Positions 1,457 to 26,834 of a stretch of 57,832 bases of DNA are shown in pieces. The DNA is from Deltaproteobacteria bacterium (GTDB lineage Bacteria; Desulfobacterota; GWC2-55-46), in contig JACRCC010000086.1 of assembly GCA_016234405.1 (NCBI GenBank), positions 1 through 57,832 on the forward strand, written 5' to 3'. The notes beneath the pieces are model-generated. The model did not search any database. It saw nothing but the letters and a program-made list of their open reading frames with translations, and had not been told where the DNA came from. The stretch's first letter is position 1, and each line of letters starts with the position of its first letter. A program made the position numbers and the translations under genes.

Positions 1457-3475
1457 TTATACAAGGAGCGGCGCGATGATAAGGGCTACGATGCTCATGA
1501 GCTTGATGAGGATGTTCATGGCCGGCCCCGACGTGTCTTTAAAGGGGTCTCCCACAGTGTCGCCCACGACTGCGGCCTTGTGCGTGTCCGATCCCTTGCC
1601 GCCGAACGCGCCCTTTTCGATGTGCTTCTTCGCGTTATCCCACGCCCCGCCGGCGTTGGCCATGAATATGGCCATGAGCACGCCTGTTACCGTCGCTCCG
1701 GCGAGCATCCCGCCCAGCGCGTTGGGACCGAGCGCGAACCCGACTATGACCGGCGCAGCGACGGCAAGCACGCCGGGGGCTATCATCTCGATAAGGGCGG
1801 CCCTTGTGCAAATATCAACGCACTTGTTGACGTCCGGCTTTACTCCGGGACGTCCCTCAAGGAGGCCGGGGATTTCCTTGAACTGGCGTCTGATTTCGTT
1901 GACCAGCTTAAACGCCGCCTTGCCGACGCTCGTCATGGTCAAGGCGCCGATAAAGAACGGGATTGTGCCGCCTAAAAACAACCCGATAACGACCGGCGCC
2001 TGCGTGAGGTCTATGGTAAAGGGCATGCCGGTCTTCATGGAAATTGACTGGCCGAACGCGGTGAAGAGCGCAAGCGCGGTCAAGGCCGCCGAGCCTATGG
2101 CAAATCCCTTGCCGATGGCCGCGGTGGTATTGCCGAGCGCGTCGAGACTGTCGGTAATGGCCCTTACGTCACGACCCAGACCGCTCATCTCCGAGATGCC
2201 GCCCGCGTTGTCGGCTATTGGGCCGTAAGCGTCAACGCTCATTATGATGCCGGTGGTGGCGAGCATCCCGACCGCCGCTATGCCTATGCCGTATATGCCG
2301 GCAAAATAATTTGCGATGTAGATTGCGATGCAAATCGAGATGAGCGGAAGGGCCGTGCTCTCAAGACCCACGGCCAGGCCGCTTATGACGTTAGTGGCCG
2401 CGCCGGTCTGGGAAGCGGTCGCAACCCTTTCAACCGGCTTTGACGAGGTGAAGTATTCGGTTATAAGCCCGATGGCAATGCCGCCGATGCACCCCGCGGC
2501 AGCGGCCCAAAAGACCGCGTTCGCGCATCCGATGTAGCGTGTTACGAAAAATCCGAATATGAGGAATATGGCCGTTGCGATGAACGTCGCGTATCTGAGC
2601 GCGGCGGCGGGGTCGAACTTCTCGAGGATGGTCATGGCAAATACGCCGATGACTGAAGCCACAAGTCCGGCCATGACGAGCACAATCGGATAAGACATCA
2701 AAGAAAACTGCGAGCCGTAGCTTGACATCGCGCCGCCCGCGACCGCCGTTGCGCCGAGCGCTATGGCCGCCACTATCGCGCCCACATAAGACTCGAATAT
2801 ATCCGCGCCGAGACCGGCGATGTCTCCGACGTTGTCGCCCACGTTGTCGGCTATGACGCCGGGGTTTCTCGGGTCGTCTTCGGGTATGCCCGCGTCTATC
2901 TTTCCGGCAAGGTCGGAGCCTACGTCGGCGGTTTTAGTGAATATGCCGCCGCCCACCCTTGCAAAGAGCGCTATGGAAGACGCGCCCATCGCGTAGCCGT
3001 TGATTACGGCGGCGGTTTCGGGTTTGCCGTAGATGAGGAAAAACGCCCCGACCCCGATAAGCCCAATGCTCGCTATGGTGAGACCCATTACCGAGCCGCC
3101 GTAAAACGCGGCTGAGAGCGCCTTTGACATGCTCGGTTTAAACCTGTTGGCCGCCTCGGCGGTCCTGACGTTGGCCTTTGTCGCGCCTTTCATGCCGACG
3201 TAACCGGCTATCATTGACGAAAATCCGCCGCATACATAAGCTATGGCGGTAGGAATATTTATGAATATACCGAGGAGTATGGCCACAACCGCGAGGAAGA
3301 TGAGCAGTATCGAATACTGTCTCTTGAGATACACCATTGCCCCGTCGTGGATGAGATGCGCTATCTCCCTCATCTTAACGTTGCCGTCCGGGAGCTTCAC
3401 TATATGAAGATACATAAATACTACGATAACAAGGCCGCCTATGCCGATGACCGGCGCAAAAGTCGTCAGACCCAT
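1457..3475 (-). CDS. hppA: membrane-bound ion-translocating pyrophosphatase
   Basis: Integral membrane pyrophosphatase (M-PPase) that couples PPi hydrolysis to H+ or Na+ export. It is 672 aa with about 16 hydrophobic segments. Three conserved loops hold the catalytic Asp residues: a [22 protein letters not shown] block near 180-215, an ADNAGG...GRDVR block near 420, and a [10 protein letters not shown] block near 637. The motif [10 protein letters not shown] near 450 has Ala where K+-independent enzymes have Lys, which by family knowledge marks a K+-dependent M-PPase. Whether it pumps H+ or Na+ cannot be decided by eye. An energy-conserving PPase beside a large complex I operon suits an energy-limited anaerobic or microaerobic lifestyle (inference). 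Confidence 0.96.
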
Positions 3476-7521: not shown

Positions 7522-8979
7522 TCATCTTATTAGAGGCTCTACCGCCTTTATCGCAATCTCCATAAAAGGCGCAGGATACAGGCCTAAGAGCATCGTCATC
7601 GCGGCCGTGATGTATATGACCACGTCATACGCGAGAGCGGGTCTGCCTGCGGGGGCAGGACTATCGCCTTCAGCGTCTTTCATGTACATATAGAAAACCA
7701 CCCGCGCATAGAAAAAAAGAGAAATCGCCGTGCTCACCACGCCTATGGCCGCGAGCCAATAATATCTGGCCTTTATGGCCGCGGACAATATGAAGAACTT
7801 GGCCATAAACCCGCCGGTCGGGGGTATGCCCGCAAGGGATAAAAGGAATAGGGCCATGAGAAACGCTATCACCGGGTGCCTTGAGGACATCCCGGCGTAG
7901 TCGCTGACATACTCGCCGTTGCCTCTGACCCTGCCCAGATACATCACAATGGCAAATGCCCCCATGTTCATGAAGGCGTAGACGAGCAGATAATACATTA
8001 CGCCGGCGGCGCCGGCCCCGTTCAAGGCGACTATCCCGATGAGGATGACCCCGGCGTGCGCGATAGAGCTGTAGGCGAGCATCCTGATGATGTTTTTCTG
8101 CGGTATGGCAACGACGCTGCCGTAGAGCATCGTGGCCGCCGAGAGCGCCCAGAGGAGTTTCCACCAGTGGGATTGAAAGGCCGGAAAGGCCACGATAAAT
8201 ACGCGGAGGAATACGGCAAAGGACGCGGCCTTCGAGCCAATGGATATGAGGGCGGTAACCGGCGTGGGCGCTCCCTCATAAGCATCCGGCGCCCAGACGT
8301 GGAACGGGAAGGCCGCTATCTTAAAGGCGAACCCTGCCGCGGTGAGGACGACGCCTAAAAGCATAAATGTATTATTCGCGCCCGCGCCGCCCGCGAGGCG
8401 CGCGATGTCGGAGATGTTCGTTGTGCCGGAAAAACCGTAGGTGAATGATATGCCGTAAAGGAGTATGCCCGAAGACAGCGCGCCCAAGACGAAATACTTG
8501 AGGCCGCCCTCGGAACTTTTCGTGTCCCTCACCCTGAAGGCCGTCAGCACGTAGAAAGACAAGGCCATCAGCTCGATGCCGACGTACAGGGCGATGAGGT
8601 CGTTGGCCGAGGACATGACCATCATGCCCGCGACGGCAAAGAGGACGATGTAGTAGTACTCGCCGGTCTCGGAGTTTATCCTCTTCAAATAATCAACGGA
8701 GAGGTAGAGCGCGAAAACGGCGGCCAATATGAATATGCAATTGAAAAAGGCCGAAAACGCATCCGCGATAACCATGCCGCCGAACGCGGGCGCGCCCTCG
8801 ATGGCATTAGAGGCGATGGGCAGGACTATGAGCAGCCCGATTATGCTCAGATACCCTATGGCCCCCTTGTCCCCTTTTTTCAGGAAGAAGTCCAAGACGA
8901 GCATGGACAGGGCCAATATAGCGACGAGCGCCATTGGCAGTATGGACAACAGGTTGACGTTAAGGGTTTCTATCGGCAT
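7522..8979 (-). CDS. nuoN: NADH-quinone oxidoreductase subunit N
   Basis: Proton-pumping antiporter-like subunit of respiratory complex I. It is 485 aa with about 14 transmembrane segments. Key places: ALYVGIELMALSFYV holds the TM5-type Glu; AAFPFHVWAPDAYEGAPTP and ISIGSKAASFAVFLR hold the TM7/TM8 Lys region; the later half has SLAGIPPTGGFMAKF. It is the last nuo gene of the operon, separated from the others by a radical SAM gene, and a composite repeat lies just upstream. Confidence 0.94.
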   Translation of the reverse strand: MPIETLNVNLLSILPMALVAILALSMLVLDFFLKKGDKGAIGYLSIIGLLIVLPIASNAIEGAPAFGGMVIADAFSAFFNCIFILAAVFALYLSVDYLKRINSETGEYYYIVLFAVAGMMVMSSANDLIALYVGIELMALSFYVLTAFRVRDTKSSEGGLKYFVLGALSSGILLYGISFTYGFSGTTNISDIARLAGGAGANNTFMLLGVVLTAAGFAFKIAAFPFHVWAPDAYEGAPTPVTALISIGSKAASFAVFLRVFIVAFPAFQSHWWKLLWALSAATMLYGSVVAIPQKNIIRMLAYSSIAHAGVILIGIVALNGAGAAGVMYYLLVYAFMNMGAFAIVMYLGRVRGNGEYVSDYAGMSSRHPVIAFLMALFLLSLAGIPPTGGFMAKFFILSAAIKARYYWLAAIGVVSTAISLFFYARVVFYMYMKDAEGDSPAPAGRPALAYDVVIYITAAMTMLLGLYPAPFMEIAIKAVEPLIR

Positions 8980-8990
8980 ATCCCTCTCTT

Positions 8991-9082
8991 AAACGGTTAT
9001 CGGTTAACGGTGATACGGTTACAACTCAGGCCAACAGGTCTGACTTTATCTGACTTTTATCGGGGCTAAAGCCCTGAGCTGC
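8991..9082. repeat. composite of family A-like and family C repeats
   Basis: The left part (AACGGTTATCGGTTAACGG) resembles the CGGTTATCGGT variant also seen at 35792 and 37266. The right part is a diverged family C element, with CTCAGG...CAGGTCTGA and GGGGCTAAAGCCCTGAGC. It fills the gap between the radical SAM gene and nuoN, so nuoN translation has to restart after a structured spacer. Confidence 0.65.
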
Positions 9083-9085
9083 ATA

Positions 9086-10801
9086 TCAATGGGACGTTTC
9101 CTCAGCCGCCTTTTTTGCGAGCCTCTCAAGCTCCTTGGGTCTGCCTTCGGCCTCGAACTTCTCTTTCACCCGAAGAGGAGAGAGTTTAAATCTGTTCTCC
9201 ACCCTCTTCCTGTAGGCAAGCGCGTTATACGCGCAGAACGGATACATGTGTCCCGACGGGGCGGTGTAATGGACGACGCACCTCATTACGCGCTCGACGG
9301 AGAAGTTATACGCATCCATGAAGTGCATACCCGCGATGAAGAAGTGGCGAAAATACCGCGTCTTACCCTTCTCGTCGTCAATGAAGACCTTCCTCAAGCT
9401 CCGCTCCTGAAATCCCTCGAGGCTCTCAAGGAACTTCTCGAAGGTCAACCCCTTTGGGGCGCTCTCGCCCTTGTAGTGTTTCTTCAACCTGTAGAGGACC
9501 TTGACCTTTGAGAGCAGACCGAAGGACGAAGGTTTTATCTCCGCGGCGAGGCTCAAGGTGTCCCTGATGAAGCCCTCCATGTCAATGAACTCGCTCACGG
9601 GCTTCACGACCCCGTCTTCCCCGATGTAGAGATACGTCCCCTGCGAGCAGTGCGGGTGGAGCGTTACCGTGAAGGCCTCTTTCCCGTTCATGGCGGTGGC
9701 GAGCCTCGCCAGGGCAGATATGCACCCTAAAGGGAACCAGTCCCTCATGGCGTCTATGTACCCGGTCTGCCTTTCTATGTCAAAGGCGAGGTCGGCGAGC
9801 GTGTATCGCTTTTCGAGCCTGTGGCTCTGGCTGAACCTTCCCACGAACGAGACCGGCTGGAAGGCGACGCCGCTTATCACGTCGTTGTTCTTGACCGCGA
9901 ACCTTACTATGTCTCCGACCTGATGGTCGTTGTATCCTTTTACGAGCGTCGGAACGAGGATGATGCCTATCTTGAGCTTCCTCGCGTTTTCAATAGTCTT
10001 GAGCTTATAATCGAGAAGCGCAACCGAGCGCGTCTTTTTGTAGACGTCGTCGCTGAGACCGTCGAACTGGAGATACAGATTCTCTACGCCCGCTTCCCTC
10101 GCCGCCTGTGCGAACTCCGGGTCCGCCATCTTGATGCCGTTGGTGTTTACCTGTATGTAATCGAAATCCAATTCCCTGGCCCGCCTCACTATTGCAAGAA
10201 AATCCGGCCTTGCCGTAGGCTCGCCGCCCGAGAACTGAACCCTATTGGCCCTCACCGGTTTCTGGTTGGCGAGAACCTCTAACATTTTGCCCACCTCTTC
10301 AAACGACGGCTCGTATAGATACCCGGATGCGTTTGCGTTTGCGAAACAGACCGGACAGGTCAGGTTGCACCTGTTCGTCAAATCCATTATCGGCAGCCCG
10401 CTGTGGGAGAGGTGCATATTGCACAACCCGCACTGGGAAGGGCATACGGAGGCGTTTTTTATCGGAGGGTCAACGATACCCCTGCCGTCGCCTATCCAGA
10501 ACCTCTCGCACTTGAGATACAGCTCCGCGCTGCCGTAGAAGACGTCTTTGAATTCGCCGTCTTTTTCGCAGGTCTTTTTTATCCAGACCAAGCCGTCTTC
10601 GGCGTAGAGCGTTGCCTTGATTATCTCCATGCACTCCGGGCACACGGACTCTATCTCTTTGGGCAGCCCGAAGGATATTGGTTTTTTCGGCGTCCCGGAC
10701 CACGTAGTGCCGGGATCACTGACCATTTCATGGAGCTTTGGGGGAACCGCCCCCTTCGAATGAGAACTTTTCGGGCCCAATACCCGTTCCAAAAGTTTCA
10801 T
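9086..10801 (-). CDS. radical SAM protein of the tetraether synthase (Tes/MJ0619-like) family
   Basis: 571 aa from the ATG preceded by GGGAGGGG. N-terminal CPEC (about 54-57) and CEKDGEF resemble a rubredoxin-like metal site; CPSQCGLC follows near 120. The radical SAM signature CNLTCPVC is at about 145-152, then FSGGEPTARP and VNTNG. The C-terminal CVVHYTAPSG...YPFCAYN holds further Cys. This order of Cys motifs matches archaeal Tes, which joins lipid tails to make tetraethers, and bacterial relatives often labelled pterin dimethyltransferase. The gene lies 27 bp after nuoM2 and before nuoN, so it is probably co-transcribed with complex I. A membrane-lipid role is an inference; the substrate here is unknown. 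Confidence 0.8.
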   Translation of the reverse strand: MKLLERVLGPKSSHSKGAVPPKLHEMVSDPGTTWSGTPKKPISFGLPKEIESVCPECMEIIKATLYAEDGLVWIKKTCEKDGEFKDVFYGSAELYLKCERFWIGDGRGIVDPPIKNASVCPSQCGLCNMHLSHSGLPIMDLTNRCNLTCPVCFANANASGYLYEPSFEEVGKMLEVLANQKPVRANRVQFSGGEPTARPDFLAIVRRARELDFDYIQVNTNGIKMADPEFAQAAREAGVENLYLQFDGLSDDVYKKTRSVALLDYKLKTIENARKLKIGIILVPTLVKGYNDHQVGDIVRFAVKNNDVISGVAFQPVSFVGRFSQSHRLEKRYTLADLAFDIERQTGYIDAMRDWFPLGCISALARLATAMNGKEAFTVTLHPHCSQGTYLYIGEDGVVKPVSEFIDMEGFIRDTLSLAAEIKPSSFGLLSKVKVLYRLKKHYKGESAPKGLTFEKFLESLEGFQERSLRKVFIDDEKGKTRYFRHFFIAGMHFMDAYNFSVERVMRCVVHYTAPSGHMYPFCAYNALAYRKRVENRFKLSPLRVKEKFEAEGRPKELERLAKKAAEETSH

Positions 10802-10828
10802 AACGACCCCTCCCATGATTGTGATTGG

Positions 10829-12376
10829 TTATCTAATCATAACGGCGCTGACGGAGCCTCCCTTGCTTACGGATGTCTTGTGCTCCACGGTCTTAACGAG
10901 TTTATTCAACGATGCGTCCATTACCCTGAGAAACGGCGCGGGATAAAGCCCTATCCAGAATATCAATATCACGAAGGCGAGCGCGGTGAGCTTCTCCCTT
11001 ACGCATAAGTCTTTTAACGGTTCATGCCCGCTGTACGAGAATTCGCCTAAAAAGACCCTCTGATACATCCACAGGAGATACACTGCCCCGAGGAGAACCC
11101 CGACCACGGCGAAGACCGCGTAAAGATAGTAGGCCTTGAACGCGCCGATGAGTATAAAAAGTTCTCCTATGAACCCGTTCGTTACCGGCAGACCCATTGA
11201 AGACAAAACGGTTATAAGGAAGCATACGCCGTAAAACGGCATAATTTTCAACAATCCCGAATACGACCCAATCACCCTGTCGTGCGTCCTCTCGTAAATC
11301 ATGCCGACGAAGAGGAAGAGCGCTCCGGTGGAGATGCCGTGGTTTATCATCTGCAGCACGCCGCCCTTTAGCCCCTCCGCGTTCAAGGCGAATATGCCGA
11401 GCATCACGAACCCCATGTGGCTGACGGACGAATATGCGACGACCTTTTTCATGTCCTTTTGCGCCAGAGTAACGAGCGCGCCGTAGATGACGGCGAATAT
11501 CGAGACCGCTGTCATGACCGGAGCCAACGTCGCGCTGGCGTCGGGCAGGAGCGGCAGCGAAAATCTCAGGAACCCGTAAGTCCCAAGTTTCAAGAGCACG
11601 GCGGCCAACACGATGCTGCCTGCCGTGGGCGCCTCGGTGTGCGCGTCGGGGAGCCACGTGTGCAGGGGAAAAAGCGGCACCTTGACGGCAAAACCGAGGA
11701 AGAACGCTATGAATATCCAAAACTGCGCGTCGGCGGGCAGGGCGTAATTGAGAAGCACGGTCGAGTCAAAGGTGTAAACCCCGGTCGCCTTTCCGTGATA
11801 GAAATAGAGCGCAATGACCCCGAGGAGCATGAATAGGCTCCCCAAAAAGGTGAAGAGAAAGAACTTTATCGCGGAATAGAGCCTTCGATTGCCGCCCCAT
11901 ATACCGATGATAAAGACCATCGGAATGAGCACGGCCTCCCAAAAGACGTAGAAAAGGAACATGTCCACGGCCATAAAGACGCCGAGCGAGAAGGTCTCGG
12001 TCAGAAGGAGCATGGCCATGTAGCCCCTGAGCTTGAACCTTATGTCCGCCCAGGAGGCCAAGACGCAAACCACGGCGGTAAAGGTGGTGAGGAGCACTAA
12101 AAGAAGGCTTATCCCGTCAACCCCGAGGAAATAACCGATTCCGAGCCTCTCGCTCCAGACCGCCCTCTCGACCCATTGGAGGTCGGGATTATTATAATCG
12201 AAAGTCAAAGGGAGATAAAGAGAAATTACGCAGACGGCAAGCGAAAAACCGAGCGCGAGCCATCTTACGAAATCATCGTCGTCCTTACCTGCGGCGAAGA
12301 TTATCACGAGCGCCCCGACGGCGGGAAGAAATATGATTATGGAAAGCACCGGGAGGCTGGCGAGAAGATCCATCAT
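10829..12376 (-). CDS. nuoM: NADH-quinone oxidoreductase subunit M, second copy
   Basis: Complex I antiporter-like subunit of 515 aa. TM5 carries YVFWEAVLIPM with the conserved Glu; TM7-8 carry FAVKVPLFPLHTWLPDAHTE and VLLKLGTYGFLRF with the conserved Lys pair. It is clearly homologous to the neighbouring nuoM1 but diverged, so it is an old duplication. Its ATG shares a base with the nuoM1 stop codon (TGATG). Two consecutive NuoM genes are the hallmark of the so-called 2M complex I known from Nitrospira and some other bacteria. Confidence 0.93.
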   Translation of the reverse strand: MMDLLASLPVLSIIIFLPAVGALVIIFAAGKDDDDFVRWLALGFSLAVCVISLYLPLTFDYNNPDLQWVERAVWSERLGIGYFLGVDGISLLLVLLTTFTAVVCVLASWADIRFKLRGYMAMLLLTETFSLGVFMAVDMFLFYVFWEAVLIPMVFIIGIWGGNRRLYSAIKFFLFTFLGSLFMLLGVIALYFYHGKATGVYTFDSTVLLNYALPADAQFWIFIAFFLGFAVKVPLFPLHTWLPDAHTEAPTAGSIVLAAVLLKLGTYGFLRFSLPLLPDASATLAPVMTAVSIFAVIYGALVTLAQKDMKKVVAYSSVSHMGFVMLGIFALNAEGLKGGVLQMINHGISTGALFLFVGMIYERTHDRVIGSYSGLLKIMPFYGVCFLITVLSSMGLPVTNGFIGELFILIGAFKAYYLYAVFAVVGVLLGAVYLLWMYQRVFLGEFSYSGHEPLKDLCVREKLTALAFVILIFWIGLYPAPFLRVMDASLNKLVKTVEHKTSVSKGGSVSAVMIR

Positions 12377-13971
12377 CAGCGGGTTTCTCCTTTGAGGGGA
12401 ATAGGCTGTGGAAGGCGGTTAGCGGTAAAATCTTTTACTTCCCGCTTCCCGCTTCCCGCTCCCGGCATCCCATCCTTTCCACTCACGACCTCCACTATAT
12501 GCGCGGTGCTCGAAGCCGTATACCTCATAAAGTGTCCCGGAAAGACGCCTATCCAAAATATGAAAACGGCTATCGAAAGGAGTATCAGCGCCTCCCTTGC
12601 GTTAACGTCCTTCAATGCCCGGTTCTCCTGCCTTGTCAGATGGCCGAATATAACCCTCTGACACATGCCGAGCATATAGATGGGACCGGCCACGATGCCG
12701 ATGACGGCCACGGCGCCAGGCACAATGCCGTATTTGAAAACGCCTATCAGCACAAACAACTCTCCGACAAAACCGTTTGTGCCGGGCAGGGCTATCGAGG
12801 AAAGCGCTATGATTATCGTGAAGGCCGCGAACGCCGGCATCACCTTCGAGAGGCCGCCGAATTCGTCCATCTCTCTTGTATGACGCCTCTCGTATATCAT
12901 GCCTATGACGAGAAATAACCCGCCGGTGGAGATGCCGTGGTTTATCATCTGTATCACCCCGCCGTCGAGGCCATGTTGGTTCATGGCGAAGATGCCGGCC
13001 ATGACCACCCCAAGATGGCTCACGCTAGAATAGGCCACTAACTTCTTTATGTCTTTTTGCGCCATGGCGAGCATCCCCCCGTATACTATGCCTATCACCG
13101 AAATGGTTATGACAAAGGGCGCCCACGCGCGCGAGGCATCGGGGAGGAGCGGGAGACTGAACCTCACAAAACCGTAAGTCCCCATCTTCAGGAGCACCCC
13201 CGCGAGGATGACGGAGCCTGCGGTAGGCGCCTCGACGTGCGCGTCCGGGAGCCACGTATGAAACGGAAAGAGCGGGACCTTTATTGCAAAACCCAAAAAG
13301 AACGCAAGGAAGACCCACCACTGGAGGTTGTAGGGGTAGCCTACCTCGTAGAGTTTGAGGATGTTAAACGTGTATTCCCCGGTTATGCCGCCGTGCGCGT
13401 AGTAGAGCGCGATTATGCCGGCGAGCATAAAAACGCTTCCGAAAAGCGTATAGATGAAAAACTTGATGTTGGCGTAGAGTTTTCTCTTGCCCCCCCAAAT
13501 GCCTATGAGGAAATACATGGGCACGAGGCCTATCTCCCAGAAAAGGAAAAAGAGCGCCATGTCGAGGGTGACGAAGACGCCCACCATCCCGGCCTCGAGT
13601 ATCAGGATGAAGACCATATACTCCTTCACCCTCTCCTCTACAGCCGACCATGAGCAGACTATGCTGATTGCGGCGATGAAGGTGGTAAGGAGGACAAGGA
13701 GGAGGCTTATGCCGTCAATGCCGAGATGATACTGCGCGCCGATGCCCGGTATCCACTCCGCCTTCTCGACAAACTGCATCTCATGGGTCGTCACATCGAA
13801 GCCGAGCAAAAGCGAGAGGGAAACGACGAAGTTGATGACGCCCACGCCGAAGGCGGTTGACCTTATCCCGTCTTTATTCTCCGATGACAAGAGCATGAGC
13901 GCCCCGGCCCCGATAAGCGGGATGATTATAAGGAGCGTCAATATGGGTATGTTTGTTATGTTTGCGTTCAT
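12376..13971 (-). CDS. nuoM: NADH-quinone oxidoreductase subunit M, first copy
   Basis: 531-aa antiporter-like subunit of complex I. FFLFWEIGLVPM (TM5 Glu), FAIKVPLFPFHTWLPDAHVE and VLLKMGTYGFVRF (TM7/TM8 Lys) are intact, as is NHGISTGGLFL. The last roughly 27 residues (starting near GKDGMPGAGSGKREVK) are read from a family B repeat and have no counterpart in nuoM2, so the repeat has lengthened the C-terminus. Despite that, the stop codon still overlaps the start of nuoM2. Confidence 0.93.
   Translation of the reverse strand: MNANITNIPILTLLIIIPLIGAGALMLLSSENKDGIRSTAFGVGVINFVVSLSLLLGFDVTTHEMQFVEKAEWIPGIGAQYHLGIDGISLLLVLLTTFIAAISIVCSWSAVEERVKEYMVFILILEAGMVGVFVTLDMALFFLFWEIGLVPMYFLIGIWGGKRKLYANIKFFIYTLFGSVFMLAGIIALYYAHGGITGEYTFNILKLYEVGYPYNLQWWVFLAFFLGFAIKVPLFPFHTWLPDAHVEAPTAGSVILAGVLLKMGTYGFVRFSLPLLPDASRAWAPFVITISVIGIVYGGMLAMAQKDIKKLVAYSSVSHLGVVMAGIFAMNQHGLDGGVIQMINHGISTGGLFLVIGMIYERRHTREMDEFGGLSKVMPAFAAFTIIIALSSIALPGTNGFVGELFVLIGVFKYGIVPGAVAVIGIVAGPIYMLGMCQRVIFGHLTRQENRALKDVNAREALILLSIAVFIFWIGVFPGHFMRYTASSTAHIVEVVSGKDGMPGAGSGKREVKDFTANRLPQPIPLKGETR
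12411..12478. repeat. palindromic repeat family B, copy 2, inside nuoM1
   Basis: A diverged B element with core GCGGTAAAATCTTTTACTTCCCGC and a pyrimidine arm of TTCCCGC units ending CATCCCATCC. It is within the reading frame of nuoM1 and encodes the end of that protein. The core matches copy 5 at 53007 (GGTAAAATCTTTTACT). Confidence 0.65.
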
Positions 13972-13984
13972 TTGTTATCCGTTA

Positions 13985-14081
13985 ACGGCCGTAAGCGTGA
14001 TGCGTCGAACGTCGAAAGGAAAAACCTGTATCTTACGGGGTTTGTCTTTCATCACGCATCACGGTCACGCATCACGGCCGT
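13985..14081. repeat. palindromic repeat family A, copy 2
   Basis: ACGGCCGTAAGCGTGATGCG on the left and GCATCACGGCCGT on the right, with a further CATCACGG unit. It covers the gap between the nuoL-like gene and nuoM1. The right end contains the stop codon of the nuoL-like gene (CGG CCG TGA). Confidence 0.8.
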
Positions 14082-15910
14082 ATTCCGAGCAGTATCCCCC
14101 CGATGATTACGACAAGTCCCAAGACCATTATCAAGGCGTAATTCTGTATCTGTCCGGTCTGAAGCCTCCTCCACGCTCCGGCGTTCACGGACACGAGCGT
14201 CGCCGCTGAATTGACCAGCCCGTCCACCACGTAGACGTCGAACTTGTGGGCCACCCATGCCGCGAACCGTGTCAGCCAGCCGGCCAAGTTGACGAGCGCG
14301 TCTATAATGCCGATGTCGAAAGACAGAGAGACCGACGCCAACCGTTTGGCCGGCCCGAGCGCCATGGTAGTGTGAAGCTCGCCGACAAAGGCGTCCACCG
14401 TTGCCACGGGCCGCTCGGCAAATTTAAGGAAGAGCCGGGCGCCCTTTCTGTAGAACCAGTCCGTATCCAAGCTTCTCGACGGCTCAGGGTGGATGCGCTT
14501 GAGAAGGAGGAAGAAACCGAGCGCCGTAAAGAGCAGTATCCCAAGCGCGGTTACAACGTGCTGCGCCGTGTAAGGGGCGTAATCCACAGGGAAAGGCAGC
14601 ACGCTGTAGAGGGCGCCGGGCCAGACGCCTATGGCAATGCAAAGGAAGGCCGCTATGCCCATGCCAACGAGCATGTTGAGGGGCGGCTCTTTGGTCCTTA
14701 TGCCGGAGTCCTCACCGAAAAACATATAATAAGGCAGTTTTAGCCCCAATGAAATAAACGTGCCTGACGAGGCACTCGTCAGGAGGAGGACTGCCCATCC
14801 TATATGAGACTCCTCTGCCGCGGAAATTACCATAGATTTGCTGACGAATCCGCTGAAGAGCGGGAACGCGGATATGGAAAATGCCCCCACCATATAAAGT
14901 ATCATGGTAATCGGCATGGTCTTGTATATGCCGCCGAGATCGGTGAGCTTCCTCTTGCCGGTCATCTGCATAACGGCCCCCACGCCCATAAAGAGCAGAC
15001 CCTTGTAAAGGATATGGGCGAAGGCATGGGCAGTTGAGCCGTTCAAGGCCAACTCGGTCCCTATCCCTATCCCGGCGACCATATACCCGACCTGACTGAT
15101 GATGTGGTATGCCAAGAGTCTCCTTCCGTCATTTTCGAGCGTAGCGTAGACGACCCCGTAGACGGCCATGATGACGCCCATCCATATAAGGAGTTCGGTC
15201 CCTGCAAAACCCCTTATGAGCACGTAAACCGCGGTCTTCGTGGTGAACGCGCACATGAAGACCGCGCCCATGATCGTCGCCTCCGGGTATGCGTCTGCCA
15301 GCCATGCGCTAAACGGAGGCACGGCCGCGTTTATCAAAAATCCCGCGAGTATCATGTAGAAGGCCGGGCCGCCGGTCTTTATGGCGTTAAACTCAATGGA
15401 GCCTGTGTTTGCGTAATATAAAATAATGCCGCCTAAAAGACAAACGCCGCCGAAGATATGAACCAATATATACCTGTAGCCCGCCTCGTCGGACGCCTTG
15501 TCCCCCTTGAACCAAATAAGGAATAACGAGGCAAACGCCATCAGCTCCCAGAATATAAAGAGCGTGATGAAGTCCCCGGCGAACACCGCGCCCATCGAGC
15601 CGCCGACGTATAGGAGCGCGGCTATGTACTCCCCGTCCCTCTTGACGTGCATCCCGTAGATGACGCCGATAAAGGCCATGATTGCGAAGATGTAGCCGAA
15701 TACGAGGGAGAGCCTGTCCACCCTTCCGAAGACGAGTTTCTGATTCAGAAGATGCACCACGCCGTGCGTCCCCGGCGCCGCGGACACTATGGCCGCAAAG
15801 GCCAGCACCGGAAGGATGAGCAGGTACGTCTGCTTAATCCTTCCCTTCAGGAACGGAACGAGCGCGGCCCCGATTATCAGTATGGCCCCCGGATGTGCCC
15901 ATTCAATCAT
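14072..15910 (-). CDS. MrpD/NuoL hybrid proton-translocating subunit of complex I
   Basis: 612-aa polytopic protein of the NuoL/M/N-MrpD superfamily. The body resembles MrpD-type antiporter subunits (FIFWELMAFASLFL with the TM5 Glu; SAWLADAYPEATIMGAVF; FTTKTAVYVLIRG; SGFVSKSMVIS). The last 60 residues look like the NuoL end: KFDVYVVDGLVNSAATL followed by RRLQTGQIQNYAL and a final membrane helix. No other NuoL is present, so it probably fills the distal NuoL place. The TM7 Lys seen as K in AIKVPLFPF of NuoM is Asn here (LINAAVPPF), while a later Lys (TTK) remains. It overlaps the upstream 81-aa gene by eight bases. The last residues and stop come from a repeat. Confidence 0.85.
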   Translation of the reverse strand: MIEWAHPGAILIIGAALVPFLKGRIKQTYLLILPVLAFAAIVSAAPGTHGVVHLLNQKLVFGRVDRLSLVFGYIFAIMAFIGVIYGMHVKRDGEYIAALLYVGGSMGAVFAGDFITLFIFWELMAFASLFLIWFKGDKASDEAGYRYILVHIFGGVCLLGGIILYYANTGSIEFNAIKTGGPAFYMILAGFLINAAVPPFSAWLADAYPEATIMGAVFMCAFTTKTAVYVLIRGFAGTELLIWMGVIMAVYGVVYATLENDGRRLLAYHIISQVGYMVAGIGIGTELALNGSTAHAFAHILYKGLLFMGVGAVMQMTGKRKLTDLGGIYKTMPITMILYMVGAFSISAFPLFSGFVSKSMVISAAEESHIGWAVLLLTSASSGTFISLGLKLPYYMFFGEDSGIRTKEPPLNMLVGMGIAAFLCIAIGVWPGALYSVLPFPVDYAPYTAQHVVTALGILLFTALGFFLLLKRIHPEPSRSLDTDWFYRKGARLFLKFAERPVATVDAFVGELHTTMALGPAKRLASVSLSFDIGIIDALVNLAGWLTRFAAWVAHKFDVYVVDGLVNSAATLVSVNAGAWRRLQTGQIQNYALIMVLGLVVIIGGILLGIRP

Positions 15911-16148
15911 AATAGTCCTCTTTCTTCATAAGCCATGCGTGCCCTATGGCCTTGGAGACTATAATTATTACGATGCAGGATATAAAGCCGTATACGGCGC
16001 CGTACCCCGGCAGGTTATCCCAAAAAAACGCGCCGTGGTGGCGGTGGACGAAAAAGTCAGCGCCAAAGACCAAGACAAGCGCGGCGTAGGACGCCTTCTT
16101 GACGAACCCTCTGTTTTTTGCGTCCGCCAACCAGTCAATTATCTTCAC
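15903..16148 (-). CDS. 81-aa two-helix membrane protein in the nuo operon
   Basis: Small integral membrane protein. After an amphipathic N-terminus (MKIIDWLADAKNRGF) come two hydrophobic stretches at about 20-36 and 50-70, a His-containing loop (HRHHGAFFW) and a short acidic tail (KKEDYYD). It overlaps the MrpD-like gene by four bases (ATGA) and the nuoL-like gene by eight, so it is tightly coupled to both. I know of similar small proteins encoded between MrpD-like antiporter subunits, without an assigned role. An assembly or linker subunit for the extra antiporter module is a plausible guess. Confidence 0.7.
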   Translation of the reverse strand: MKIIDWLADAKNRGFVKKASYAALVLVFGADFFVHRHHGAFFWDNLPGYGAVYGFISCIVIIIVSKAIGHAWLMKKEDYYD

Positions 16149-17638
16149 AGTATCCCCCTTATGAAACTTAAAAGGACGTCGGGATAAAAACCGAGCGCAA
16201 GAGAACCTATTGCGCTGATAACGAGCGGAACGGCTATATATGGGTTCTCCTTTATGTCTTCATGGTGGGCGTCGTGGTGAAGCTCGTCTCCGTGTCCGTG
16301 ATGTCCTCTTGCCTCTTGAGACTCTCTGAAAAACGCCGTATACACGATGGGCAGGAAATAAGCGGCGTTTAGTACCGTGGACGCAAGCAATACTAAAAGT
16401 ATCACCATCGAGCCTGCCTCCATGGTCCCTACTGCGATATACCACTTGGTCGCAAACCCTCCGGCCGGAGGCGCGCCTATCATGCCAAGCACCGCTATCG
16501 AAAAGGCAACCATGGTCCACGGGAGCTTTCTGCCGATGCCCGACATCTCGCTGATATTGGACTTGTGGGCAACGGCATAAATTGACCCCGCGCAGAAAAA
16601 GAGCGTTATCTTGGCGAATGCGTGGTTGGTGATGTGTATAACCCCTCCGGTTATGCCGGAGGGCGTCAAAAGGGCGGCCCCGAGCACGATATATGAGAGC
16701 TGGCTTATCGTCGAATACGCGAGCCTTGCCTTCAGGTTGTCCTTGGTGAGCGCTATCACGGATGCCGTTATAATGGTAAAGGAGACGACGTAGGCGGTCA
16801 CCATGCCCAGACCGAGGGCCTTTAACGTCCCCGTGCCGAAGACGTAGAGTATCACCCGCAAGATGGAAAATACGCCCACCTTCACCACGGCCACGGCATG
16901 GAGAAGGGCTGATACGGGCGTAGGCGCGACCATTGCCGAGGGGAGCCAATTGTGCAAAGGCATTATGGCCGCCTTTGCGAAACCGGCGATAAAGAGCGCG
17001 TAAACCACCGTAAGCAGCACCGGATCTCCGCCGTGTAATATCCCTGTCCTTGAAAATTCCAGCGTCCCGGCGATGACATAAGTGAGGACCACGGCCGGGA
17101 GGAGAAACAACTTAGACGTGCCGAGCAGATACGTGATGTACTTCTTGCCTCCCGCGTATGCCTCAGGGGTGTCCTTGTGGCTGACGAGCGGGTAGGTTAT
17201 CATCGTGATCAACTCGTAAAAAAGATAGAGGGCCAACAGATTGCCTGCGAACGCCGCGCCCATAGTGGCCGAGACCGCGCCCGCAAAACACGCGAAGTAC
17301 CGCGTCTGCGCGTGCTCATTAAGGGAGCGCATATAGCCGATGGAGTATATCGTCGTGAGTATCCACAGAAAAGAAGCGGTCAGGGCGAACATGAGGCCGA
17401 GGGCGTCCACCCTTAAGGTCATGCTCAGCCCAGGGGCAAAGCTCATAAGGACGATCTCGAGGGTATTGCCCGCAAGGACGTCGGGCGCCATGGACAAGAC
17501 GATGAAGAAGTTCACCGCGCCGGCTAAGATGGACCAGAACTCGCGGGTGTTGGGTCTCTTGCGCGAAAGCAGTATAAGGACGGCCGCAGCCGCGGCAACG
17601 CCCAACACTATCAACGGTTTAAGTGAATGTATTACCAT
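16145..17638 (-). CDS. MrpD/NuoM-like antiporter subunit
   Basis: 497 aa with about 14 transmembrane segments. LYLFYELITMITYPLV carries the TM5 Glu; FAKAAIMPLHNWLPSAMVAPTPVSALLH resembles NuoL and MrpA/D (Lys kept); VVKVGVFSILRV and NHAFAKITLFFCAG follow. A His/Asp-rich loop (GHHGHGDELHHDAHHED) near residue 455 sits between the last helices and is predicted cytoplasmic or periplasmic. That His cluster is unusual and might bind metal. It lies between nuoK and the 81-aa gene. A supernumerary pump of the complex is the simplest reading. Confidence 0.86.
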   Translation of the reverse strand: MVIHSLKPLIVLGVAAAAAVLILLSRKRPNTREFWSILAGAVNFFIVLSMAPDVLAGNTLEIVLMSFAPGLSMTLRVDALGLMFALTASFLWILTTIYSIGYMRSLNEHAQTRYFACFAGAVSATMGAAFAGNLLALYLFYELITMITYPLVSHKDTPEAYAGGKKYITYLLGTSKLFLLPAVVLTYVIAGTLEFSRTGILHGGDPVLLTVVYALFIAGFAKAAIMPLHNWLPSAMVAPTPVSALLHAVAVVKVGVFSILRVILYVFGTGTLKALGLGMVTAYVVSFTIITASVIALTKDNLKARLAYSTISQLSYIVLGAALLTPSGITGGVIHITNHAFAKITLFFCAGSIYAVAHKSNISEMSGIGRKLPWTMVAFSIAVLGMIGAPPAGGFATKWYIAVGTMEAGSMVILLVLLASTVLNAAYFLPIVYTAFFRESQEARGHHGHGDELHHDAHHEDIKENPYIAVPLVISAIGSLALGFYPDVLLSFIRGIL

Positions 17639-19236: not shown

Positions 19237-20265
19237 TTATATCAACATCAGACCCGTTATCAGGATGTTGACGAGCGAGAGCGGTATCAATATCTTCCAG
19301 CCTATCTTCATGAGTTGGTCGTACCTGTATCTGGGGAGCGTGAACCGCACCCACATGAAAAAATAGATAAAAAAGCAGACCTTACCCATGAACCATGCTA
19401 TCGGAGGTATGAACGAGAGGAATGCAAAGGGCGCGTTCCATCCCCCGAAAAAGAATATCACGGATAGGATGGAGACCGTAACCATCGCTACGTATTCCGC
19501 GAGCATGAAAAACGAGAACCTCATGCCGCTGTATTCGGTATGATAGCCCGAAGAGAGCGTGCCTTCGTCCTCCGAAAGGTCGAAGGGAATCCTATTTATC
19601 TCAGCGACTGAGCCTATAAGGAATATCGCAAACCAGACGGGCCCGACCGGGAGATAGAGAAAATTCCAACTCAGAAACGAACCCCCTTGGCTCTTTACGA
19701 TTTCGAGGAGATTCAAGGAATTCGAGAGCATCACCACGCCGATAACCGCAAAGCTCACCGCTATTTCATAGCTTATCATCTGGGCCGAGCAACGCAACCC
19801 GCCCAAGAGCGCGTATTTGCTGTTCGAGGCCCAACCCCCCAAGATCATCCCGTATACGCTCAAACCTCCGATGGCGAGTATATAAAGCGCCCCGACGTTC
19901 ATGTCCGAGAGATAGAGCTTCACTTCAGCGCCTATTACCGGTATCTTGAACGTGTCGCCTAACGGAATGGCGGCAAAGACCGCGAAGGCCGGCACCATGG
20001 CGATAAGAGGCGCAATCTTGAAAAGGATTTTATCGGCCTTGTCCGGCACGATGTCTTCCTTGAAGAGGAGCTTTATCGCGTCCGCAAAGGGCTGCAATAT
20101 CCCGTGCGGCCCCACCCTCCACGGCCCAAGCCTCACCTGTATGTGCCCGGCGATCTTCCTCTCAAGCCACGTGAGCGGCATAGGCAGGGCAAAGATGATC
20201 TGCGTGAGGACGGCTACCTTCACGGTCAACAAGATTACTTCAAGTATGAGGTCAAGGGTCGGCAT
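19237..20265 (-). CDS. nuoH: NADH-quinone oxidoreductase subunit H
   Basis: Eight-helix subunit that forms much of the quinone chamber. 342 aa. RLGPWRVGPHGILQPFADAIK, KEDIVP, and the loop INRIPFDLSEDEGTLSSGYH followed by EYSGMRF are all diagnostic. It ends five bases before nuoI. A family A repeat and the cyclic-nucleotide-binding gene come before it in the operon. Confidence 0.95.
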   Translation of the reverse strand: MPTLDLILEVILLTVKVAVLTQIIFALPMPLTWLERKIAGHIQVRLGPWRVGPHGILQPFADAIKLLFKEDIVPDKADKILFKIAPLIAMVPAFAVFAAIPLGDTFKIPVIGAEVKLYLSDMNVGALYILAIGGLSVYGMILGGWASNSKYALLGGLRCSAQMISYEIAVSFAVIGVVMLSNSLNLLEIVKSQGGSFLSWNFLYLPVGPVWFAIFLIGSVAEINRIPFDLSEDEGTLSSGYHTEYSGMRFSFFMLAEYVAMVTVSILSVIFFFGGWNAPFAFLSFIPPIAWFMGKVCFFIYFFMWVRFTLPRYRYDQLMKIGWKILIPLSLVNILITGLMLI

Positions 20266-20377: not shown

Positions 20378-20848
20378 CTACCTTCTTCTCCCCCACATGT
20401 AATTTATCATCTCGATGTATCTTGAGTTCATGCCGCGCACTATCGAGTGTATGGTGAAGACGATGTTTTTCATCAGCTTGTATATCACCCTCGGATTGGT
20501 CTCGACGAGTTTTTCAAACTCGCTTTTCTCTATCATGTAGGTTTCGAGGTCCGAGATGGCCACTATGGTAGCCGACCTCGGGCGCCCGTCGAGAAAGCTC
20601 ATCTCGCCGAATATGTCCCCGTCTTTCATCATCGTAAGCGTGAAGAGATCTCCGTCAGGCGCGGTCTTGCAGGCCTTGACCTCGCCCTTCTTGATGATGT
20701 AGAGCGATTCCCCGTCCTGAGATTCCTTGAATATCGTCTCTCCGAGCTTAAAATCCTTTTTGTGCAGTATCGGCGCTATTACGGCTATTTCCTGATCGGA
20801 CAGGTCTACGAAAAAATGCACCTCTCTAAGAGTCTTAGGGTCTATCAT
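20378..20848 (-). CDS. stand-alone cyclic-nucleotide-binding domain protein
   Basis: 156 aa with a single CAP/Crp-type sensor domain: about residues 12-125, with the phosphate-binding cassette GDIFGEMSFLDGRPRSATI (Arg and Ser contacts present). A C-terminal helical tail (about 125-156, KLMKNIVFTIHSIVRGMNSRYIEM) resembles the dimer helix of Crp, but no helix-turn-helix follows. It is therefore a sensor without a DNA-binding module. It sits inside the complex I operon between nuoG and nuoH. Regulation of the enzyme or of a partner by cAMP or a related nucleotide is inference. Confidence 0.85.
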   Translation of the reverse strand: MIDPKTLREVHFFVDLSDQEIAVIAPILHKKDFKLGETIFKESQDGESLYIIKKGEVKACKTAPDGDLFTLTMMKDGDIFGEMSFLDGRPRSATIVAISDLETYMIEKSEFEKLVETNPRVIYKLMKNIVFTIHSIVRGMNSRYIEMINYMWGRRR

Positions 20849-20917: not shown

Positions 20918-23385
20918 TCACGAACATGGCCTTATCGCCACCTGCGGCGTCCCGGCGCCTTTTTTGAAGAACCTGTTGACCGGGCAATCCTGATAATTCT
21001 CGGCTATGAACGCCACGCCTCTTTTCGACCCCGGCCTTACGGTCAGCGTCATTACGGCCTCGTAATGAGCGCCCTTTACAATAACCTTCGCCCCGGGTTT
21101 CAGGCCGTAAAAAACGGCGTCTTCCGGGCATATCTCCACGACCGCCGAATTGAGAAGACCCGTGAGACTCACCGACCTTTTGGAGAGCATCCCCGAGTGA
21201 AAGAGATGATTGCCTGTCATGAGCGCAAATTGGTATTTATCGTCTTTGGGCGCAATTGCCGCAGGCGCGCATTTGACGGATGGAGGCGCCGCATCAGCGG
21301 CCTTGACGAGCGCGGCCTTTATGTCGAGCTTGTTGTCAACGTTTCTCTTGTTGTTGAACGCGAGGCTCGCGTCCCGGTACATCGGGTTTGTCTTTCGCAT
21401 CTCGTCCAATGCGAGGGCAGGATTTTTCGGGCCGAACCCGGTGTCGAAAATCTCCCCGACCGCTTTTATGACGTCGAAATCGCGCTTGGCCTTGCCCGGA
21501 GGAGGTAATAGGCTTCTTATAATCTGCGCCCTGCCCTCCTGATTCGTATAAAAACCTTCCTTCTCGGCAAAGGTCGCGCCCGGCAGGACCACGTGCGCCA
21601 TTTTTGCGGTTTCCGTCATGAACGTATCCTGCACTATCAGAAATTTAAGCCGCATGAGCGCCTTTTGTGCAAACTGCGCGTCCGGAAACATCGAAACAAT
21701 ATCAACTCCGGCGGCATACATGGAAGTTATACCGCCGTCCATCGCAGCCTCTAACATCTCGTGCGTGCCCTTTCCCCTTTTCTCAACCCCTGCGTAGCCG
21801 GGACCGAAACCCGGGTGAGCGCCCATCTCCCAGACGCCTCTCTGGTTGCAGCGGTCGAGCGCCGGGAGTATCAAAACCTTTTTGCCCGACGATTTCAGCG
21901 AATCTTTAAGAAACCCCAAGCCCGCGCAGCTTTCAGGATGTCTCAAAAACTCCGTGCCCGCGATTATCGCCACTGACGCGGATGCCTTGAGCTTGGCCAC
22001 AAGGGCGTCAATCATATCTTTGGCGATATCCGCAGTCTGGGCATAACCCCCGGTCTTATCAGGGACAAGCGAAAGCGCAACGGCGTTCAACACCGCGCCC
22101 TCGGCGCCGGGGGCAACGCGCAGCAACAGGTTGGCCGATGAATCGAGTTTCATGGCGCGCGGCGAGACTATAATTACGTTCATCTTGCGCGCTGCGCTGA
22201 TGCGCCTTATGATGTAATCCGTTACCGGGTTCTCGTCGGATATCTGCGCTCCAATTACGACTACGGTATCCGCCTCCATGCAGTCAAATACCGATACGCC
22301 GCCTTCGTTCATGCCCGCAGCCGCCGCGAATGCCTCAACGCCGGACGCCTCCCACCTTGAAGTCGAATCCACGTTGGCGCTCTTGAAGACGTCCCTCACG
22401 AGTTTCTGAAAAAGATACGCCTCTTCGTTCGTATATCTCGGCGAGACTATGCCGCCGAACTCGTCCCCGGATACACCCATGAGGCTCTCTTTTATGTAAT
22501 CAAAGGCCTCTACCCAAGTTGCCGCCTCCAGCTTACCATACCTGTTGACGTGCGGGGTGGTGAGCCTCTCAGGGCTGTTTATGTAGTCGAAGCCGAACCT
22601 GCCTCTGGCGCACAGGGTTTCGCTGTTGACGCCGACGCCGTATTGCGCCCTTGCGCGGAGCACTGTCCCGTCCCTGTGCTCCATGACCATCCTGCACCCG
22701 GTGGCGCAGTAGGCGCACACCGTATCCGCGCCCTTCAAATCCCACGGACGGGCTTTATATCTGTAGGGAAGTCTCATGAAGCACCCGACCGGGCAGACCT
22801 CTATGCAGTTGCCGCAGTGGTCGCAGTCGAGTTGCGTTTTAAAGAAACTCGTCTCTTCCTGATGGTCCCCCCTGCCTATGGCGGCCAATACGTTTACGCC
22901 CACGACCTCGCGGCACACGCGCGCGCATTTGATGCACTGCACGCACCTGTTGGAGTTCTTTATTATTACCGGGCTTAAGGCGTAGTCTTTTTCATGGAAC
23001 TTGAATTTTTTTTCGGTGTGCCTGCCCTTGTGCGGGCCGTATTTGTGGACCATGTCCTGCAGTTCGCACTCTCCGGCCTTGTCGCACACCGGACAGTCGA
23101 GGGCGTGGTTCGCAAGGAGAAATTCGAGCGCCCCGGCGCGCGCCGAGACGACCGTGGGCGAATCCGTCAGGATGCTTATGCCGTGCAGAACCGGCGTCAC
23201 GCACGAGGGCTGGAGTTTTTCTGCCCCTCGATTTCGATGAGGCACATCCTGCACGAACCCAAACCCATGAGGTCGGCCTGATAGCAAAAGGTCGGCACCT
23301 CGAACCCCGCGTCGCGCGCCGCGTCGAGTATGAGCGTGTTGTCCGGGACGGTTATCTCTTTTCCGTTTATCTTTACGGTCGCCAT
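20918..23385 (-). CDS. nuoG: NADH-quinone oxidoreductase subunit G, interrupted by a frameshift
   Basis: The 4Fe-4S/2Fe-2S subunit of the NADH module. The N-terminal frame (23385 down to 23197) has the 2Fe-2S ligands in FCYQADLMGLGSCRMC, then runs into a stop. A second frame continues with KLQPSCVTP (the fourth 2Fe-2S Cys), HALDCPVCDKAGEC, CVQCIKCARVC, DCDHCGNCIEVCP, CAYCATGC and a molybdopterin-oxidoreductase-type domain. The two join at a run of five A (plus strand T at 23216-23220): one extra A would restore a single 822-aa protein. The stretch GAAAAAC is not a classical slippery heptamer. Either a base is missing from the data, or this nuoG is mutated. All other parts look normal. Confidence 0.85.
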
Positions 23386-23394
23386 AGTCTTGAA

Positions 23395-23640
23395 TTACGC
23401 AGCCGACAATTTTTCTTCGTTCTGGACGACTATCTTCGGGTTTTTATTCTCCGGCGGAACGGGAAGCCCTCTTTCCTTGAGCGCATCCACGTGTTCGAGC
23501 ATCCCCCACTTCGCCTTGTAGACGCAGTCTTCGATGGAATGGCCCACGCCTGTGAAACCCTCGAGGTCCGGAGAATAAAACCCGAAAAAATCGGCGTCCC
23601 TTGTCGCTTCGATTACCAGTGAATATTTGAGTTCTATCAT
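23395..23640 (-). CDS. HicB-like protein without a HicA partner
   Basis: 81 aa with the HicB/HicB-like antitoxin fold pattern: YSLVIEATRDADFFGFYSPD, LEGFTGVGHSIEDCVYKA, then HVDALKERGLPVPPEN. HicB proteins usually neutralise HicA mRNA-interferases. No HicA-like small basic protein is encoded next to it, and there is no separate DNA-binding domain. It lies between nuoF and nuoG with its own GAGGG site. In this place it could be a stray antitoxin, or a protein co-opted for the respiratory operon. Confidence 0.75.
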   Translation of the reverse strand: MIELKYSLVIEATRDADFFGFYSPDLEGFTGVGHSIEDCVYKAKWGMLEHVDALKERGLPVPPENKNPKIVVQNEEKLSAA

Positions 23641-25585: not shown

Positions 25586-26776
25586 TTACTTGTCGCACTC
25601 CCCGAAGACCGGGTCGAGGGACGACACTATCGCTATTACGTCGGCCAGATAACGCCCCTTTGACATGGCGTTTATGGTCTGAAGGTTCATAAACGACGGA
25701 GCGCGAATCTTCAACCTCCACGGCTTTTCTCCGCCATCGCTCACTATGTAGACCCCAAGCTCGCCCTTGGGGGATTCTATTGACGAGTAGACCTCGCCCT
25801 TTGGGCATTTAAACCCATGGGAGACGTATTTGAAGTGATGGATGAGCGCCTCCATGTTCTTGTAGACGTCGGGCTTGGGCGGCGGCACTATCTGCGGCAT
25901 GTCCACGGCAAAAGGCCCGTCAGGCATGTCTTTGAGGGCCTGCGTGATTATGCGCATGGCTTGCCTTATCTCCGCGAACCGCACGATGTAACGGTCGTAG
26001 CAGTCGCCGTTGGCGCCGATGGGGACGTCGAAATCGAACCTGTCGTAAATGAGATACGGCTCGTCTTTCCGGATGTCCCACTTGACGCCGCTTGCGCGCA
26101 GAGCCGGGCCGCTCAAACCGAGGTCAATCGCCTCTTGGCCCGAGAGCACGCCCACGCCCTTATTCCTGTCGAGCCAAACCCTGTTGCCGGTGAGGATGGC
26201 GTCGTACTCGTCGAACCTTGCGGGGAAGAGCTCAAGGAGTCTCTCGACCGATTCCTTGCACTCCCGCGTGAATTCGTATCTCACGCCTCCGACCCTAAGA
26301 TAGCTGAGCGTCATGCGCGCCCCGCAGAGCTGCTCGAATATGTCGAGGACGACCTCGCGCTCCCTCATCGCGTATAGGAGTATGGTCATGGCCCCGAGGT
26401 CGAGCGCCCAAGCGCCTATGCAAAGAAGATGCCCGGCGATCCTCGACAGTTCGGCGGCAATGACCCTGATGTATTTCGCCCTCTCGGGAATCTCCAAACC
26501 CATGAGCTTTTCAACCGCCATGACGTAAGCGAGGTTGTTGCTCATGGCCGACATGTAATCGAGCCTGTCCGTGTACGGGACGAACTGGTGATAGAGGAGA
26601 TTTTCCGCTATCTTCTCCGTGCCCCTGTGCAGATAACCGATATCAGGCTCCGCCTTCAATATCGTCTCCCCCTGCATCTCAAGAACGAGGTGGAGCACCC
26701 CGTGCGTGGAGGGGTGCTGCGGCCCCATGTGCAGGGTGAATTCTTTAGTTGTTATAAGGTCGTTGTTTTCGGTCAT
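25586..26776 (-). CDS. nuoD: NADH-quinone oxidoreductase subunit D
   Basis: 49-kDa-type subunit lining the quinone site. 396 aa from MTENNDLITTKEF; HMGPQHPSTHG with the quinone-site His is near residue 20, and the C-terminus ends in SLDPVFGECDK, as usual. The frame upstream of the chosen ATG is only translated family B repeat. No clear Shine-Dalgarno is left ahead of this ATG because the repeat abuts it, so initiation may depend on re-initiation after nuoC. Confidence 0.93.
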   Translation of the reverse strand: MTENNDLITTKEFTLHMGPQHPSTHGVLHLVLEMQGETILKAEPDIGYLHRGTEKIAENLLYHQFVPYTDRLDYMSAMSNNLAYVMAVEKLMGLEIPERAKYIRVIAAELSRIAGHLLCIGAWALDLGAMTILLYAMREREVVLDIFEQLCGARMTLSYLRVGGVRYEFTRECKESVERLLELFPARFDEYDAILTGNRVWLDRNKGVGVLSGQEAIDLGLSGPALRASGVKWDIRKDEPYLIYDRFDFDVPIGANGDCYDRYIVRFAEIRQAMRIITQALKDMPDGPFAVDMPQIVPPPKPDVYKNMEALIHHFKYVSHGFKCPKGEVYSSIESPKGELGVYIVSDGGEKPWRLKIRAPSFMNLQTINAMSKGRYLADVIAIVSSLDPVFGECDK

Positions 26777-26780
26777 GTTA

Positions 26781-26834
26781 TATGGGGAGTGGGAGGTAGT
26801 AAAGTCTTTACCACATCCCACTTCCCACTCCCTA
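26781..26834. repeat. palindromic repeat family B, copy 4
   Basis: GGGGAGTGGGAGGTAG, core GTAAAGTCTTTAC (perfect palindrome), then CCACATCCCACTTCCCACTCC. It fills the nuoC-nuoD gap and touches both genes. Confidence 0.85.

Follow-up and report, generated by a model that had tools for sequence, protein, structure and literature searches.

The window (the whole 57,832-nucleotide stretch analysed here, from an uncultured groundwater bacterium) carries a nuo operon for complex I on its minus strand, within which a gene for a Tes-family radical SAM protein lies between the second NuoM gene and nuoN. The main features, with nuo assignments from NCBIfam/Pfam where marked, are as follows.

7522..8979, minus strand: nuoN, downstream neighbour of the Tes gene (NCBIfam/Pfam)
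8980..9085, minus strand: 106-bp spacer between Tes and nuoN, in which a search for minus-strand intrinsic-terminator-like sites found none
9086..10801, minus strand: Tes gene (clade A); the longest reading frame reaches 10816
10807..10814, minus strand: predicted Shine-Dalgarno sequence GGGAGGGG, 6 nt before the ATG at 10801
10829..12376, minus strand: nuoM2 (second NuoM), upstream neighbour of the Tes gene (NCBIfam/Pfam)
12376..13971, minus strand: nuoM1 (NCBIfam/Pfam)
14072..15910, minus strand: MrpD-like pump subunit (MrpD2), 612 aa, with 26 aa inserted in its C-terminal lateral helix region
15903..16148, minus strand: small protein, 81 aa, no Pfam match, conserved in relatives G018 and G056
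16145..17638, minus strand: MrpD-like pump subunit at the NuoL position, 497 aa
17651..17950, minus strand: nuoK (NCBIfam/Pfam)
19237..20265, minus strand: nuoH (NCBIfam/Pfam)
20918..23287, minus strand: nuoG
25586..26821, minus strand: probable nuoD, from homology in loci L117-L133
27987-28352, minus strand: probable nuoA, from homology in the same loci, to which the operon extends

The longest open reading frame for the Tes gene spans 9086-10816 and would encode 576 amino acids. We prefer the ATG at 10801, which gives a protein of 571 amino acids, because GGGAGGGG is correctly placed upstream of it and because the resulting N-terminus agrees with those of relatives, so that 9086-10801 is most likely the true extent of the gene. 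The cysteine motifs that the initial annotation had recognised are all located in this frame: CPEC (residues 59-62), CPSQCGLC (125-132) and CNLTCPVC (150-157), together with CVVHY (513-517) and FCAYN (527-531) towards the C-terminus. The short spacing reported there was also borne out, with 27 bp between nuoM2 and the start of the gene, 106 bp between its end and nuoN, and all three genes on the same strand; that this is the minus strand is a detail we add. The Shine-Dalgarno sequence, the short spacers and the lack of an intervening terminator on the Tes strand indicate that the gene is probably co-transcribed with nuo. Its codon fit (0.177) and GC3 (0.74) are like those of the neighbouring nuo genes, and this host-like codon usage gives no support to a recent foreign import.

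The complex I encoded alongside is indeed enlarged, in keeping with the giant proton pump of the initial annotation. Within window positions 7522-17638 lie five pump subunit genes (two MrpD-like, two NuoM and one NuoN), including the lateral-helix insertion in MrpD2. A five-pump hybrid complex (Complex_I_3) has been described as unique to Ca. Manganitrophaceae (PMC9040806); the definition given there also describes the complex seen here, and the same five-pump make-up is present in relative G018 (locus L116). As judged from gene content, then, the five-pump hybrid complex I occurs outside Ca. Manganitrophaceae. Two small genes are interspersed in the operon: one for a 156-amino acid protein with a cyclic-nucleotide-binding domain between nuoG and nuoH (20378-20848), which is kept in the nuo operons of relatives, and a HicB-like antitoxin-type small reading frame between nuoF and nuoG (23395-23640) that scores below the Pfam cut-off. 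The same window also holds a gene for a membrane H+-pyrophosphatase (1457-3475).

The initial annotation placed the protein in the Tes/MJ0619 family, and every comparison agrees. Residues 55-545 match the NCBIfam Tes model NF045702 with 530.3 bits (cut-off 450; E=4e-159). The best solved relative is GDGT-MAS (the MJ0619 protein) of M. jannaschii (PDB 7tol, E=1.4e-120 over 499 residues), making the two proteins homologous over their whole length, and an AlphaFold model of moderate confidence (pLDDT 70) has the same fold, with 7tom and 7tol as top matches by a wide margin. TrsS, a radical SAM (seleno)protein of related architecture, is a poorer fit: its model NF045646 gives 342 bits, under both its own cut-off of 490 and the Tes score. 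We placed the protein in a tree of 87 bacterial and archaeal sequences with TrsS as outgroup (a quick method under LG+G4, in which the inner branches are partly weak), as the annotation had suggested. It falls on the Tes side of the split from TrsS (84 rows, support 100), where bacterial Tes proteins form a group nested among those of archaea. The clade that holds it is one of groundwater 'Deltaproteobacteria', close to Nitrospirota and Dadabacteria. Profile scores, tree and fold comparison together rule out a non-lipid radical SAM enzyme such as TrsS or MoaA, and by sequence the protein is a bacterial homologue of Tes (GDGT-MAS).

Alignment with MJ0619 allowed 16 catalytic or ligand residues to be mapped, of which 15 are kept. 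The reference was the published GDGT-MAS description (PMC9433317); the remaining conserved cysteines and the histidine of the N-terminal cluster were assigned by alignment, with H83 of MJ0619 taken as the equivalent of H135. The radical SAM CX3CX2C motif (C150, C154, C157), the N-terminal auxiliary cluster ligands (C125, C129, C132, H135) and the C-terminal cluster (C390, C513 and C528 by alignment, with M497 as the labile methionine) are all present. The active-site Tyr459 of MJ0619 corresponds to Y517, and Met439 is likewise conserved. At the rubredoxin site all three cysteines are found (C59, C62, C83) but His36 of MJ0619 is replaced by Asp86 (window position about 10561). Among the 82 sequences with a residue in this column the window protein is the only one with Asp, the other 81 all having His, and its activity could therefore be altered. 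From the alignment we take D86 to be a ligand change within the Tes family rather than a feature that defines a family. Beyond this substitution, the window protein differs from MJ0619 in being ~50 residues longer at the N-terminus. Elsewhere in the family, the Tes proteins of Methanomassiliicoccaceae (L104, L113) are without any N-terminal auxiliary cluster ligands.

How general is the location of the gene within nuo? All 63 genomes of the class were searched and Tes was present in 20, but in none of the other 62 does it lie in or beside nuo, the remaining 19 carriers having it elsewhere; an absence from an incomplete genome is uncertain. In all 16 relatives with a readable tandem-NuoM junction nuoM2 and nuoN are directly adjacent, overlapping by 4 bp in half of them, and Tes is therefore an insertion in the window lineage. 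The initial annotation had proposed checking whether the order nuoM-Tes-nuoN is conserved, and had held that a position next to nuoN unique to this genome would tell against its proposal. None of the 16 comparable junctions carries Tes, a conserved order is rejected for the class, and the position is that of a single genome among 63, known from one MAG contig. Such a position is weak evidence that Tes and complex I work together.

A gene inserted by chance, or a decaying copy with little function at the nuo site, might look much like this, given the single-genome position, a branch (0.20) slightly longer than those of most clade members (0.01-0.18) and the lost rubredoxin histidine. The 571-codon frame is intact, however, and preceded by a strong Shine-Dalgarno sequence, and the host-like codon usage and 69-74% identity to relatives also speak against decay, making this reading very improbable.

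The larger proposal of the initial annotation, that membrane tightness and proton pumping are linked, was drawn from the position of Tes, which is found in one genome only, and is not supported in that form. Coupling between Tes and complex I is possible but unproven. Outside the class, 80 Tes loci of other genomes include two unrelated lineages in which Tes and nuo are neighbours in the same orientation: in Candidatus Fischerbacteria (L097:8524-11656) Tes follows nuoA-H after 76 bp, whilst in an Acidobacteria clade (three genomes: L099, L100, L102) it lies about 0.2-0.4 kb upstream of nuoA. In the Acidobacteriota sample 36 genomes gave a strong match to Tes, and random placement in these would be expected to put Tes within 8 kb of NuoD in 0.25 cases, as against the two lineages observed (P about 0.03 in a post hoc estimate). 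Among genomes of the class, 14 of the 17 that have tandem NuoM also carry Tes, compared with 5 of the other 31 (uncorrected Fisher 1e-5), a co-occurrence that is largely shared ancestry. On a UvrA tree, likewise built by a quick method, the independent contrasts number four to six, only four of them supported, and nearly all run in the same direction, giving at best 0.125 in a sign test; with so few contrasts, phylogeny-aware tests are underpowered.

These observations favour, as far as they go, a functional coupling in which Tes is kept in the nuo operon because membrane-spanning lipids, produced along with a larger proton pump, lessen leak or suit the length of its membrane arm. Against it stand the confinement of the nuo position to one genome in the class, the shortage of contrasts, at least one Tes-lacking relative (G004) that has a four-pump complex all the same (two MrpD-like subunits, one NuoM and NuoN), and the lack of a tandem NuoM pair in any of the 49 other bacterial Tes genomes in which one was sought, which disposes of a general link between Tes and tandem NuoM across bacteria. 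We give the coupling little credence. An extended version, in which Tes has been recruited repeatedly to bacterial complex I loci, the window enzyme being made from the same transcript as the five-pump complex and a partly monolayer membrane improving or stabilising the enlarged proton pump, is highly doubtful. Were the nuo association general, membrane leakiness would be tied to pump stoichiometry; as matters stand, nothing implies that the enzyme is a dedicated functional partner of complex I, and the side results, namely the five-pump complex beyond Ca. Manganitrophaceae and the two clades within the Tes equivalog, now matter more.

The second of these clades is represented in the same genome. 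A further Tes gene (C20:7465-9063, locus L142; clade B) scores 488 bits on NF045702, above the cut-off, and is flanked by genes for a LipA-type acyltransferase and for LolA; its cluster also holds MMPL, VTT, an ABC exporter and ketosynthases, with an ATP-grasp gene nearby. Several 'Deltaproteobacteria' and Nitrospirota loci repeat the order acyltransferase-Tes-LolA; clade B loci comprise L142, L073, L091, L103, L078, L082, L085, L086 and L093, and the cluster in L073 includes an ACP. This conserved, aryl-polyene-like gene context suggests that clade B Tes makes a different lipid product. A literature search for radical SAM enzymes in MMPL/LolA polyene clusters found none. A single NCBIfam 'equivalog' thus spans two paralogous clades with different contexts, and matches to it cannot all be read as tetraether makers.

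What, then, might the clade A enzyme of the window do? In bacteria, Tes proteins are candidates for the synthesis of membrane-spanning lipids, although lipid coupling by them is unconfirmed experimentally (PMC8941075, PMC11868695). The window protein is of the same kind as the bacterial Tes proteins of Zeng et al. 2022 (PMC8941075; for example those of Acidobacteria), which were proposed to act in the formation of brGDGT-like lipids, but differs from them in its location within a nuo operon and in belonging to the groundwater clade. Tail-to-tail coupling of lipids is also the activity of the bacterial membrane-spanning lipid synthase Mss (PMC13274423), described as an enzyme separate from Tes. 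The enzyme family is thus already known, and what the window gene adds is a clade in groundwater bacteria, which have a Ger-like protein as well.

This last protein bears on the substrate. In contrast to MJ0619, the window enzyme has a bacterial host, and a search of its genome for an archaeal-type GGGP synthase (PF01884) gave no match, which argues against archaeal-type lipids. The genome does encode a protein of 1437 amino acids in which two BcrAD_BadFG stretches are combined with a single DUF2229 domain, as in the two-activase architecture reported for the glycerol ester reductase Ger (PMC13274423). From these two observations together we infer ester or ether lipids of bacterial type as the substrates. 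The Ger-like gene is found in 51 of 59 relatives, with or without Tes, and so does not pair with Tes; as a dedicated Tes partner it is ruled out.

By analogy with GDGT-MAS, a SAM-derived radical would abstract hydrogen from two saturated lipid tails at their ends, and the tails would then be joined by a C-C bond through the C-terminal [4Fe-4S] cluster. The products would be membrane-spanning lipids, diabolic-acid or brGDGT-like, made from bacterial ester or ether lipids, by an enzyme whose gene, in the window lineage, came to lie within the nuo operon, with nuoM2 on one side and nuoN on the other, and is probably co-transcribed with it. A Tes-fold enzyme might instead act on another substrate (a quinone, a specialised lipid or a complex I-linked lipid) and form no membrane-spanning lipids at all. 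That clade B passes the same cut-off from within an acyltransferase/LolA/MMPL/ketosynthase cluster, one model covering different pathways, lends this some weight, as does the lost rubredoxin histidine; clade A, however, keeps all the Fe-S ligands and the equivalents of Met439 and Tyr459, and has no consistent non-lipid neighbour, and we consider such a switch of substrate unlikely. Tail-to-tail coupling is the likely role of the window enzyme, and we think it probable overall that the protein is a resident bacterial Tes-family enzyme which couples lipid tails to give membrane-spanning lipids.

Outside nuo, clade A Tes genes have no conserved neighbour beyond those shared by close pairs of genomes. 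In two relatives a gene for a B12-binding radical SAM protein, possibly a lipid C-methylase, lies directly downstream of Tes (L043:11839-13386 and L039:1847-3340).
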